A DNA stretch of 64,000 nucleotides from Segatella maculosa DSM 19339 = JCM 15638 (GTDB taxonomy: Bacteria; Bacteroidota; Bacteroidia; Bacteroidales; Bacteroidaceae), in contig NZ_KB908319.1 in the NCBI RefSeq assembly GCF_000382385.1, positions 1 through 64,000 of the forward strand. Reading direction: 5' to 3'. The notes under the pieces were generated by a model. The model ran no database searches and was not told the DNA's origin. It saw nothing but the letters and a program-made list of their open reading frames with translations. Positions 58,220-61,173 of this stretch are shown here, one piece after another (the first letter of the stretch is position 1; each line of letters opens with the position of its first letter). Both the position numbers and the translations under genes were made by a program.

Positions 58220-58683
58220 TGTTTATTCAAAATTATTGCAATCTTTTCAAGATAGCAAGCATCGGTGTTATCGAAGGCAGAATGAGCCTTGCTGTCGATA
58301 TCTATGACGCCCCAAACGCTGACATCCGACCTACGAAGCGGGACAACAATCTCTGAATGGGAAAGCGAAGAGCAGGCGATATGGCCCGGAAAGCGTTCGA
58401 CATCGTCGACAACAAGCGTACGGTTTTCGGCCCAAGCCGTGCCGCACACGCCGCGACCACGGCCGATATGCATGCAAGCCACAGGGCCTTGAAAGGGTCC
58501 GAGCTGCAATTCAGCGTCACGAACCAAGTAGAATCCCGTCCAGAAGAAGCGGTCGGGAAAGGCAAAATGCAGGGCCGAAGCAACATTGGAAAGTATGCTT
58601 ATCAGGTTGTTTTCGCCCTCGATGAGAGACGATATCTGCCTGCAAAGGGTCTCGTAAGCCTGTTCTTTATCGCTCATTTGCAT
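58207..58683 (-). CDS. msrC: GAF-domain free methionine-R-sulfoxide reductase
   Basis: 158 aa, a single GAF domain. The three family cysteines are visible: CMHIGRGRGVCGTAW (two Cys, about 88 and 98) and HIACSSLSHSEIV (one Cys, about 122). It reduces free methionine-R-sulfoxide, a cytoplasmic oxidative-damage repair step. The start (MQMSDK or MSDK) overlaps the rsmA 3' end by 10 bp, so it is translationally linked to rsmA. Confidence 0.88.
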   Translation of the reverse strand: MQMSDKEQAYETLCRQISSLIEGENNLISILSNVASALHFAFPDRFFWTGFYLVRDAELQLGPFQGPVACMHIGRGRGVCGTAWAENRTLVVDDVERFPGHIACSSLSHSEIVVPLRRSDVSVWGVIDIDSKAHSAFDNTDACYLEKIAIILNKQLEE

Positions 58684-59477
58684 GTCGTCAGTTCTTTTTC
58701 TACAAGATTTGTCAGCTCCACAAACTGTTCGATGCCGAGCTGTTCGGGCCGTTTGGTCATGATATCAAGCGTGAAGAAAGCTTCGCTCGCAGGCTTTTCT
58801 TTCGAGAACATCTGCTTGATGCTGACGCGAAGCATCTTTCTTCGCTGGTTGAAAACAGTTTTTACGAGTCGCTTAAAAAGCTTTTCATCGCAACCAAGTT
58901 CGGTTACTTGGTTGCGTGTCATGCGGATAACGGCGCTCTTAACCTTTGGAGGGGGATTGAAAACCGACTCATCCACCGTGAAAAGATACTTCACATCATA
59001 CCACGCTTGCATCAGAACAGACAGGATACCGTAGGCCTTATTGCCCGGAGCCGAGGCCATACGGAGGGCCACTTCACGCTGTATCATACCCGTACAGCAA
59101 GGTATCAAGTCCTTATAATCAAGCATCTTGAAGAATATCTGCGACGAAATATCATAGGGATAATTGCCCGTTAAGACGAACGGTTTGCCCGAAAATAGTT
59201 CGGAAAGATCCATACGTAAGAAGTCTTCGCCAATGATATTGTCATGCAGTTTCGGGAAATTCTTGTGTAGAAAAGCAACCGATTCCCTGTCTATTTCCAC
59301 TGCTTTTACCTCGCGATCTTTCTCAACTAAATACTGAGTTAGCACGCCCATACCGGGCCCGATTTCAAGTATTGGAAGCTTGGGGCAAGCATCTACGGTG
59401 TCAGCAATGCGTCGCGCAATGTTCAAATCCGTGAGAAAATGCTGTCCGAGATGCTTCTTCGGTCTTACTGATTTCAT
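58674..59477 (-). CDS. rsmA: 16S rRNA adenine dimethyltransferase
   Basis: 267 aa (KsgA). S-adenosylmethionine-binding motifs LEIGPGMGVLTQYL and VEIDRESV, then the catalytic NYPYDISSQIFF (the usual NLPY is NYPY here). It dimethylates two adenines near the 3' end of 16S rRNA during 30S assembly, which matches the neighbouring rsgA and frr. It begins KPKKHLGQHFLTDLNIARRI-like (VRPKKHLGQHFLTD). Own promoter upstream. Confidence 0.95.
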   Translation of the reverse strand: MKSVRPKKHLGQHFLTDLNIARRIADTVDACPKLPILEIGPGMGVLTQYLVEKDREVKAVEIDRESVAFLHKNFPKLHDNIIGEDFLRMDLSELFSGKPFVLTGNYPYDISSQIFFKMLDYKDLIPCCTGMIQREVALRMASAPGNKAYGILSVLMQAWYDVKYLFTVDESVFNPPPKVKSAVIRMTRNQVTELGCDEKLFKRLVKTVFNQRRKMLRVSIKQMFSKEKPASEAFFTLDIMTKRPEQLGIEQFVELTNLVEKELTTCK

Positions 59478-59501: not shown

Positions 59502-59532
59502 CAAAATTAAACAATATCGGGCAACTTCCAAA
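59502..59532 (-). promoter_or_regulatory. promoter of rsmA
   Basis: Minus-strand TTTG (59529-59532), 19 bp, TAATTTTG (59502-59509). It starts 17 bp after the terminator of the small peptide gene. Confidence 0.7.
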
Positions 59533-59548
59533 ATAAAACACGAAAAAA

Positions 59549-59580
59549 TGGCATATCAAGGAACTTTCCTTGATATGCCA
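59549..59580 (-). terminator. terminator of the 25-aa peptide gene
   Basis: A perfect 15-bp stem, TGGCATATCAAGGAA and TTCCTTGATATGCCA, with a 2-nt loop; on the minus strand it is followed by TTTTTT. It is 50 bp after the peptide stop codon. Confidence 0.85.
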
Positions 59581-59630
59581 TTCACTATGTTTAACCAATT
59601 AATTTTTCGTTTTCAATGCGGTCTTCGCTA

Positions 59631-59708
59631 TTAGCGAAGCTTACCGCCTAAGTTAATTGCCTGTGCAATCATCACTGCAACAACGGCGAATACCATTAAT
59701 GTTACCAT
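59631..59708 (-). CDS. 25-aa hydrophobic peptide
   Basis: A 25-codon ORF reading MVTLMVFAVVAVMIAQAI, then NLGGKLR, i.e. one short transmembrane helix with a basic C-terminus. It is too short for normal gene callers. It has a consensus promoter (59754-59785), a leader of about 40 nt with AAGAAAGG before the ATG, and a strong terminator 50 bp after the stop. That makes a complete mini-gene of roughly 200 nt. It may encode a membrane microprotein or be an sRNA with an incidental ORF. No family known to me. Confidence 0.6.
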   Translation of the reverse strand: MVTLMVFAVVAVMIAQAINLGGKLR

Positions 59709-59753
59709 AATCTTTTACCTTTCTTAAATTGTTATCCTTAAATTTTTACGATG

Positions 59754-59785
59754 CAAAGGTAATCAGATTATGTTGTGCCCGCAAA
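59754..59785 (-). promoter_or_regulatory. promoter of the 25-aa peptide gene
   Basis: Minus-strand TTTG (59782-59785), 20 bp, TACCTTTG (59754-59761): an exact consensus match. Confidence 0.75.
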
Positions 59786-59826
59786 CAAATCGGACTTTAA
59801 ACGCTAATATCTCGCGTTTTATTGAC

Positions 59827-61173
59827 CTAAATCAAACAGGCCTCCTTGTGCAAAGTTCGTCTGAAACAGAGCCAATAAAGCACGCCGGCCACGGTGAGAC
59901 CGAAGGGGAATGCGCTCCAAATGCCCACCAAACCTGCATCAAGATAGATGCCAAGAAAATAACCCAAGGGTAGCGTAATGACGAAATAAGACAAGAAAGC
60001 CACATAAACCAACGGCTTGACATTCGACAAACCGCGCAACGCATTGGCATAGTTGGACTGCATACCGTCGCCGAACTGATAGACGACAAATGGGATAATG
60101 GTCATGGAAACCATGCTGATGACATCGCCGGAGTCTGTGAATAAGCTGCCAATGACATGACGGAAAGCAAAGACAGGCACGCTGATTGCCACGCCTAACA
60201 GCAGGATTAACTGAAAGCCGGCACTTGCAGTTGTGTCGGCACATGCGTAATCTTGCCGGCCATGATAGTTGCTTACGCGAATGGCAACGGCTGCCGCCAT
60301 ACCGTAATATAGCATATATCCGAGTTGACTAATGGTCAACATCACTTGGTGGGCGGCTAAGGCTGTAGTGCCTATCCAGCCTACCATAACGCTCGAAAGA
60401 CTGAAAGCGGCAGTCTCCATACCCATCTGCAGGGCCAAAGGCCAGCCTTGTTTGTTCTGATAAACAAAGTCTTCGCGACCTACTTTCGCCTGCATGAAGC
60501 CTGTTCTGTAGGCTGTTCGACGCCTGAAGAACAGCACAACGAGCACCAAACACATGAAAAGGCGTGAAAGCATGGTCGAAACACCGGCTCCGAAGAGCCC
60601 CCATTCGGGCATTCCCAGCTTACCATAGATGAGCAAATAGTTGCCGATGATGTTCAAAAGATTGCCCGTAAGCATCACGACCATAGGCACTTGGGTCCTC
60701 GAAATGCCATCGAAGAACTGCTTGAAGGTATTGAATCCGATGACAAAAGGAATGGAAACGAGGTTCACTATGAAGTAGGGACGCATCAAAGACAGCAGCT
60801 CTTCGGGTTGTCCGAGGTTGCTTAAGTTCAACAAAAGCAGGCTCATCACGGCGATAAGTGCCAGTGTCAACACGGCTCCTGCAGCCAAACCGGTCTTCAA
60901 AGCCACGCCGATTTCATGTGCTTTTCCCTGTCCGTAGAGTCGTCCGATGATAGGAGTAAGCCCGTAAGAGAAGCCAAGTCCGAAGAGAAGGGCAAGCGTA
61001 AACATATTCGTAACGAAGCTCGCAGCCGCCAATTCCTGCAAAGAATGGTGGCCGATCATCAGCGTGTCGGCAAACCCAAGGACTATCGTTCCCAACTGCC
61101 CCACGGTGATGGGCACGCCAAGACGCACCAAATGAGGATATTGTGCAGCGTACTTTCCAAAAGAATTCATCAT
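59827..61173 (-). CDS. MATE family efflux transporter
   Basis: 448-aa inner-membrane protein with about twelve helices in two similar halves, as in multidrug and toxin extrusion transporters of the NorM/DinF type (LGVPITVGQLGTIVLGFADTLMIGHHSLQELAAASF; second half PLALQMGMETAAFSLSSVMVGWIGTTALAAHQV). It exports cationic drugs or metabolites using a Na+ or H+ gradient. The start may be at either of the first two Met codons. Divergent from the YbhN-like gene, with consensus promoters for both. Confidence 0.93.
   Translation of the reverse strand: MMNSFGKYAAQYPHLVRLGVPITVGQLGTIVLGFADTLMIGHHSLQELAAASFVTNMFTLALLFGLGFSYGLTPIIGRLYGQGKAHEIGVALKTGLAAGAVLTLALIAVMSLLLLNLSNLGQPEELLSLMRPYFIVNLVSIPFVIGFNTFKQFFDGISRTQVPMVVMLTGNLLNIIGNYLLIYGKLGMPEWGLFGAGVSTMLSRLFMCLVLVVLFFRRRTAYRTGFMQAKVGREDFVYQNKQGWPLALQMGMETAAFSLSSVMVGWIGTTALAAHQVMLTISQLGYMLYYGMAAAVAIRVSNYHGRQDYACADTTASAGFQLILLLGVAISVPVFAFRHVIGSLFTDSGDVISMVSMTIIPFVVYQFGDGMQSNYANALRGLSNVKPLVYVAFLSYFVITLPLGYFLGIYLDAGLVGIWSAFPFGLTVAGVLYWLCFRRTLHKEACLI

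Follow-up and report, generated by a model that had tools for sequence, protein, structure and literature searches.

Known small membrane proteins and regulated short transcripts

ORFs of about 25 codons are rarely annotated. CydX, CydH, AcrZ and KdpF are small single-span accessory proteins, several of them under anaerobic control, and FnrS is an FNR-regulated small RNA of enterobacteria. Genes of Bacteroidetes are transcribed from promoters with a consensus of their own, consisting of a -33 and a -7 element. In Bacteroidales, Crp/Fnr-type regulons such as those of Cur (BT4338) and HcpR have been described. Cur activates the sRNA MasB (PMC10994844) and has the motif wwwTATGTTnTAnAACATAwww (PMC6989115), HcpR2 in most Bacteroides has the motif GTAACnnnnGTTAC, and DNR/FNR and most delta-proteobacterial HcpR have a box of the type TTGAYnnnnRTCAA (both PMC1274295). 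FopS, another short RNA, does not code for protein and represses translation of SusC (PMC11697453).

Here we describe a small transcription unit in a stretch of 64,000 nucleotides (the window) from Segatella maculosa DSM 19339 = JCM 15638 (contig NZ_KB908319.1, positions 1 to 64,000 of the forward strand). Its product is similar to CydX, CydH, AcrZ and KdpF in that all are proteins of 25-40 aa with one helix, but 12 members of its family have no Pfam match to such families, and, except for the MATE gene, no oxidase, pump operon or Kdp gene is found next to the window copy. With FnrS the unit shares a short transcript from a promoter with an FNR-type box, while FnrS belongs to another phylum, has another promoter type and is non-coding. 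With FopS (RF04319) and GibS of Bacteroides it shares shortness and an own terminator, and FopS is even preceded by the same fixed-spacing box promoter at L117 in the own genome and at L227 and L245 in two other Prevotella genomes; FopS, however, is non-coding (PMC11697453), whereas the window transcript looks coding. In a search of the window against Rfam only a purine riboswitch reached the gathering score and RF04319 was unmatched, and locus L001, which holds the window unit, gave no match to RF04319 at E up to 0.5. Resemblance of the window leader to the 5′ part of FopS suggests that it may pair with SusC mRNAs. Cur-MasB is a precedent for Crp/Fnr-family control of a small RNA (PMC10994844), but the motifs differ: those given for Cur and for Bacteroides HcpR2 do not match the window box, which is of the DNR/FNR type as given in PMC1274295, so that neither identity was adopted. 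By reading, the Cur site TATGTTnTAnAACATA is absent from the window promoter.

Layout of the unit

The original prediction had placed a complete mini-gene, with a consensus promoter, a 25-codon ORF for a single hydrophobic helix and a perfect-stem terminator, between rsmA and a MATE transporter gene. The ORF is indeed there on the minus strand, as are all other elements of the unit: it runs from 59708 to 59631, stop codon included, encodes MVTLMVFAVVAVMIAQAINLGGKLR, and has one hydrophobic helix with a hydropathy maximum over 17 residues of 2.6. The terminator was also found (59583-59546), with a perfect stem of 16-17 bp followed by a T run, and it has the most pairs among 17 terminator-like sites in the 8 kb scanned. 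The promoter exists too, but it is not of the E. coli type; a sigma-70 scan did not return it, and that reading was abandoned for the Bacteroidetes type, which fits with the -7 element TACCTTTG (59754-59761) and, by direct reading, a -33 element TTTG (59782-59785) 20 bp from it. Overlapping the -33 element is an imperfect palindrome, TTGTTTGCGGGCACAA (59773-59788), in which 10 of 16 positions are symmetric. Further upstream lies a candidate FNR/Crp-type activator box, TTGATTTAGGTCAA (59822-59835), whose centre is 67 bp upstream of the TA in the -7 element.

The leader of 44 nt carries the motif AAGGATAACA (59730-59739) and is predicted to be unstructured (MFE 0.0), while the stop codon is enclosed in a hairpin (59618-59647) with outer GCGGT/ACCGC and inner CTTCGC/GCGAAG stems. 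When the unit is folded, none of 200 shuffles equals its stability (z = -5.9). The full unit begins with the activator box at 59835, ends with the terminator at 59546 and slightly exceeds the interval originally proposed. Downstream and outside of it is rsmA (ksgA; 58674-59477, minus; TIGR00755, 262.5 bits, cut-off 171), which has an own -7-like sequence, TAATTTTG, at 59502-59509, and upstream of the peptide gene is the MATE gene (TIGR00797, 258.9 bits, cut-off 147.4). The idea of an independently expressed membrane microprotein gene stands. Three features had escaped the original prediction: the class of the promoter, its activator box and the hairpin that encloses the stop codon.

Conservation of the peptide

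How can such a short ORF be recognized as a gene? Because 130 ORFs of at least 20 aa overlap the 8 kb examined, a 25-aa ORF is by itself uninformative, and conservation is the evidence. A first protein search covered 60 genomes (the own one, 35 of the same genus and 24 of other genera) and gave matches in nine including the own; eight of the 59 others matched, of which seven stand, since the match in G035 sits inside another reading frame and was discarded as a family copy. A pattern search of named records confirmed 15 loci among 117 pattern hits. With a 12-row profile, whose own 12 rows match by construction, 45 of 149 genomes of the genus matched at E<=0.1 and 32 at E<=1e-3; 13 of the 45 reached no better than E 0.002-0.06, and these were checked in part; among the high-quality genomes of the genus the figure is 44 of 143. 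The family is therefore patchy in Prevotella sensu lato, where its peptides have 25-31 aa. Named carriers are Segatella paludivivens, with two copies, S. buccae, S. baroniae, Hoylesella oralis, H. nanceiensis, Prevotella illustrans, P. cerevisiae and other Prevotella. Beyond the window, another copy is present in the own genome (contig C1, 264994-265077), and genome G061 has five copies. In the latter (L053, L054, L055), near-identical peptides of 29 aa stand in tandem, with the same intergenic repeat between them and the same box promoter.

An extension of the family beyond the genus was rejected: an order-wide profile matched five of 148 genomes including the own, and the other four matches, all weak (E 0.015-0.07), lie inside open frames of 119-651 aa and were taken as chance. 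A phage origin was likewise dropped, as 46 pattern hits in viral contigs contained no confirmed relative. The following comparisons mostly rest on a table of 48 copies, made of 46 of the 60 places listed by the profile plus two from the first protein search, and leaving aside the 12 weakest places, the two found in G182 and G148, and that in G035; these copies are not independent, because there are near-identical genome pairs and because G061e uses the promoter of G061d.

Selection at the protein level is apparent. In eight copies compared over 20 core codons, pS (0.07-0.59) exceeds pN (0-0.15) in all 28 pairs, although the pairs depend on one another and the protein search that yielded the copies favours intact frames. 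The comparison of G016a with G024a shows eight synonymous and no non-synonymous changes in 20 codons. None of the eight frames is broken, which favours coding over a conserved RNA with a decaying frame, with the same bias of protein-search copies toward intact frames. Among 12 members, A8 and A17 are invariant, and V10, A11, A15 and K23 are nearly so. The original prediction had pointed out that membrane microproteins of this size are seldom annotated, and no curated family contains this one in Pfam, NCBIfam or PHROG: Pfam gave no family for the window peptide and, for the 12 members, a sole match of one member to PF25682 at E 0.15; the best NCBIfam match was NF048001 (13.2 bits against a cut-off of 50); and PHROG gave no clear E-value, the best being phrog_17204 at E 0.066 for one of the 12 members. 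With a short conserved ORF and one hydrophobic helix, as in small single-pass membrane proteins, this is, judging by its sequence, a real and conserved gene for a small membrane protein; no curated family covers it, but its kind is an ordinary one.

The hairpin around the stop codon

Protein coding does not seem to be the whole story of the 3′ part. In nine sequences of the window clade, from which the structure was itself derived and whose relatedness also favours it, 87.2% of the cells of the stop hairpin are paired and the covariation score is 0.265 against 0.178 in shuffled alignments, each value being reached by one of 500 shuffles. Sliding the partner by 1-3 columns lowers the pairing to 21-56%. 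Two of the five covariation measures are not exceptional: four pairs are changed on both sides, which 37 of 500 shuffles equal, and the number of further pair types is unremarkable (119 of 500). In 14 of 14 copies (z -1.6 to -7.5), the stop region also folds more stably than null sequences with unchanged protein and unchanged base composition of the UTR, the UTR part being shuffled base by base, and in 10 of the 14 no null folds as low as the real sequence; these 14 were chosen from 27 folded copies, and one of those unused, L287, has no clear stop hairpin. Thus, some of the C-terminal codons seem to be constrained by RNA structure, and the hairpin may serve mRNA protection or an RNA function.

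The activator box and the promoter class

The promoter of the window gene is not an isolated case. TAnnTTTGC is found upstream of 47 of the 48 copies, and a box TTGAYnnnnR[TG]CAA is centred 67-69 bp before the TA of the -7 element in 42 of them (67 bp in 27, 68 bp in 14, 69 bp in one). Six copies, the second copy of the own genome included, have no box at 66-69 bp. Further boxes within 330 nt of the 48 copies occur only at 86 bp (five) or 98-100 bp (four). The promoter thus shows the arrangement of a Crp/Fnr-activated promoter, namely a palindromic box that keeps a constant distance to the core promoter downstream, and a class-I Crp/Fnr activator would require phasing of this kind. The palindrome at -33 reaches at least 12 symmetric positions in 20 of 47 copies, as the best of 24 positions and counted without a null; it is nearer to perfect in several relatives and is perhaps a second operator.

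The same geometry extends to whole genomes. All of 100 Prevotella genomes contain the pattern TTGAYnnnnRTCAA-N58-62-TAnnTTTGC, with 3-15 sites each, while the reversed pattern, the only genome-wide control for the spacing, gave no site. Across the family, 101 of 151 genomes have it, which represent 18 of 22 genera, and the control gave a single hit. The own genome has nine sites of the box-promoter pattern, and the bare box occurs there 34 times against 11 for the reversed word.

Leaders downstream of these promoters also have features in common. GGATAA[CT] is found in 38 of the 48 copies, and exact AAGGATAACA occurs 12 times in the own genome, two of them in box-driven leaders, against six for the reversed word. 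Hairpins are predicted in 19 of 44 distinct leaders, where base-by-base shuffles give 0.7, and seven of the 19 have the loop AAAGG on mostly different stems. At the flippase/rsmA locus described below, 6 of 22 distinct leaders have a hairpin, so that such hairpins are mainly a trait of the dispersed copies.

Other products of the promoter class

By reading, the box sites of the own genome precede the window peptide, an amphipathic peptide of 39 codons, a protein of 120 aa that looks secreted, a membrane unit of two ORFs which resembles LysO, and four RNAs of ~190-270 nt with no convincing ORF, one of them ahead of a further MATE gene. The remaining product is FopS, an RNA of 65 nt that is followed by a second FopS copy (RF04319, 78.6 and 75.9 bits). 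Seven of these nine sites have a terminator within 330 nt. Over 30 box sites in 29 genomes, in tool-chosen loci with the own genome included (of 30 loci, one was too short and one gave two sites), 19 have a terminator within that distance, against 10 of 110 generic promoters in rsmA loci; for other TAnnTTTGC in the same loci as the box sites it is 4 of 48. The remaining genera of the family show a weak excess (6/32 versus 3/34). A few box sites (L219, L230) drive long genes or look like chance.

In several loci, the box promoter is followed by similar 34-aa cationic peptides (MRKMVKRIV...YCVNVLRMYN.GRVN.PV) in L222, L228, L232, L239 and L240, and by a recurring RNA of ~200 nt with repeated TTAGGTT in L218, L223, L224, L233, L244, L246 and L099, the last being own contig C2 near 352719. 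An Rfam scan of six of these seven loci (all but L246) gave for this RNA only a weak GibS match in L233, 35.7 bits against a gathering score of 115; a stray hit to a microRNA family in L218 lies away from it. At L236 (1615-1899, plus), a box-promoter site stands directly before three tandem tRNA-Arg (acg) genes.

The promoter class seems to serve short RNAs and micropeptides for the most part. It is conceivable, although we would not call it probable, that Prevotella has a Crp/Fnr-type regulon of mostly short transcripts, namely FopS, sRNAs without an Rfam match and several families, unrelated to one another, of membrane or cationic peptides with 25-40 aa, all with one rigid box distance and often a GGATAACA leader, in which the window gene would be a dual-function member whose peptide and stop-hairpin RNA are both under selection. 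Since one promoter geometry points to a set of short transcripts, it can serve as a search rule, that is, to look downstream of TTGAYnnnnRTCAA-N58-62-TAnnTTTGC, in a genus dominant in gut, mouth and rumen. The Crp/Fnr factor behind the FopS sRNAs and micropeptides of Prevotella, and the signal that controls them, also become open to testing in this way. A limited literature search found no small-protein or start-site map of Prevotella, though one may exist.

Genomic neighbourhood

Is the gene bound to its neighbours? The slices of 23 of the 48 copies contain rsmA and/or a flippase-like LPG_synthase_TM gene. The flippase gene is in 21 of these 23, the remaining two slices ending before they would reach it; it is divergent and starts at most ~460 nt upstream in 15 copies, and in the window it lies beyond the MATE gene. 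rsmA is in 14 of the 23, starting at most 360 nt from the ORF start in 12 of these. None of the four tested neighbour genes shows up in the slices of the remaining 25 of the 48 copies.

Regulation of a membrane partner such as the adjacent MATE transporter had been suggested. Of the 23 copies with this flippase/rsmA neighbourhood, only 6, in five genomes, adjoin the MATE gene of the window, which is therefore a neighbour in one group only; a partnership with it was rejected on synteny, as it is missing from the other 17, in 15 of which the flippase gene starts within ~460 nt upstream and leaves no space for it. Remote MATE-like matches (25-38% identity) at four other rsmA loci, one of which (L136) also has the peptide, do not restore the link. 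A purine riboswitch aptamer (RF00167, 61188-61283, minus, 50.9 bits, gathering 37) lies directly upstream of the window MATE gene and suggests purine control of this transporter.

When 90 rsmA-upstream regions were collected, 30 from loci returned by the searches and 60 picked by hand from listed matches, 19 had a box-promoter unit within 700 nt, a figure which is no estimate of prevalence because many known carrier genomes were left out. All 19 have a short hydrophobic ORF after the unit, as read by eye. Several of the diverged peptides at the rsmA locus score poorly with the profile (E 0.005 to 9), so that common ancestry of all is not established, and some are too diverged for it: conservation concerns the slot more than the sequence.

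Possible function of the peptide and its transcript

The reading that we favour, and consider probable, is that the gene encodes a single-span inner-membrane protein which a Crp/Fnr-type activator induces and which acts on a membrane partner. Coding follows from conservation; activation, partner, topology and function we infer from the sequence. An activator of the Crp/Fnr family would bind the box in class-I geometry at about -80 and induce a ~200-nt mRNA. The peptide would then insert so that its basic C-terminus lies on the cytoplasmic side, and a conserved face of small residues (A8, A11, A15, A17) could pack against a helix of an integral membrane protein, with a contribution of Q16, a polar helix residue in the window's clade, so as to adjust the activity or stability of the partner, while the stop-codon hairpin might stabilise or tune the transcript. 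The partner is probably not the neighbouring MATE; because 25 of the 48 copies show none of the four tested neighbour genes, it is probably encoded elsewhere.

The strongest rival is a dual-function transcript, in which the ~200-nt RNA would encode the peptide and also act as a base-pairing or protein-binding small RNA. The covarying stop hairpin, its advantage over synonymous-codon nulls in all copies examined, and the frequency of short terminator-bounded transcripts in the promoter class, some of them lacking a convincing ORF or matching FopS, speak for it; but a 3′ hairpin may merely protect the mRNA, not all covariation measures are exceptional, and conservation at the peptide level suffices to explain the ORF, and we regard a second role as possible but less likely than the favoured reading. 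If the RNA role were everything and the ORF were there by chance, a structured RNA with its own promoter and terminator would be expected just as observed, but pS would not exceed pN throughout, nor would protein similarity persist across copies with unlike leaders, so that a purely non-coding sRNA is hardly credible.

Could the peptide instead be harmful? Type I toxins and antimicrobial peptides are of similar size and hydrophobicity and have a similar basic C-terminus, and a type I toxin or a membrane-active peptide acting on its own cell would agree with the multicopy and tandem arrangement in some genomes and with the excess of hairpins in the family leaders. A type I system, however, has a cis antisense promoter overlapping the gene, and no canonical one is present, as there is no plus-strand TAnnTTTG between 57785 and 61319, though a non-canonical one may exist. 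The lack of a canonical antisense promoter and the predicted open leader of the window copy make a toxin less likely; moreover, no Pfam toxin family matches and the promoter geometry is common to other kinds of product, so we hold this to be unlikely. Far less likely still, if slightly less remote than the chance ORF, is regulation of the adjacent MATE: adjacency is seen in the window and five other copies, but against this stand the synteny at the same locus and the riboswitch match, which points to separate control of the transporter. The single-span protein under Crp/Fnr-type control remains our preferred reading.

Candidate regulators

Which factor might bind the box? The own genome encodes four candidate Crp/Fnr-type HTH proteins over the cut-off, none of which is tied to the box. 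The C1 regulator protein is nearest to PDB 9day and 5v30/6np6, the last two being P. gingivalis HcpR, and the C3 regulator protein to 2gau, called CrpPg in PMC12040651. In L250, L256 and L258 (genus g26, probably Bacteroides), a Cur-like site of the TATGTTATAAAACATA type lies over the -33 region at box promoters, which suggests joint control by two Crp-family factors there. The FopS tandem of the own genome (L117, contig C29, 3096-3161 and 3275-3341, minus), whose upstream copy is behind a fixed-spacing FNR-type box, lies ~1 kb from a gene for a Crp/Fnr-type regulator.
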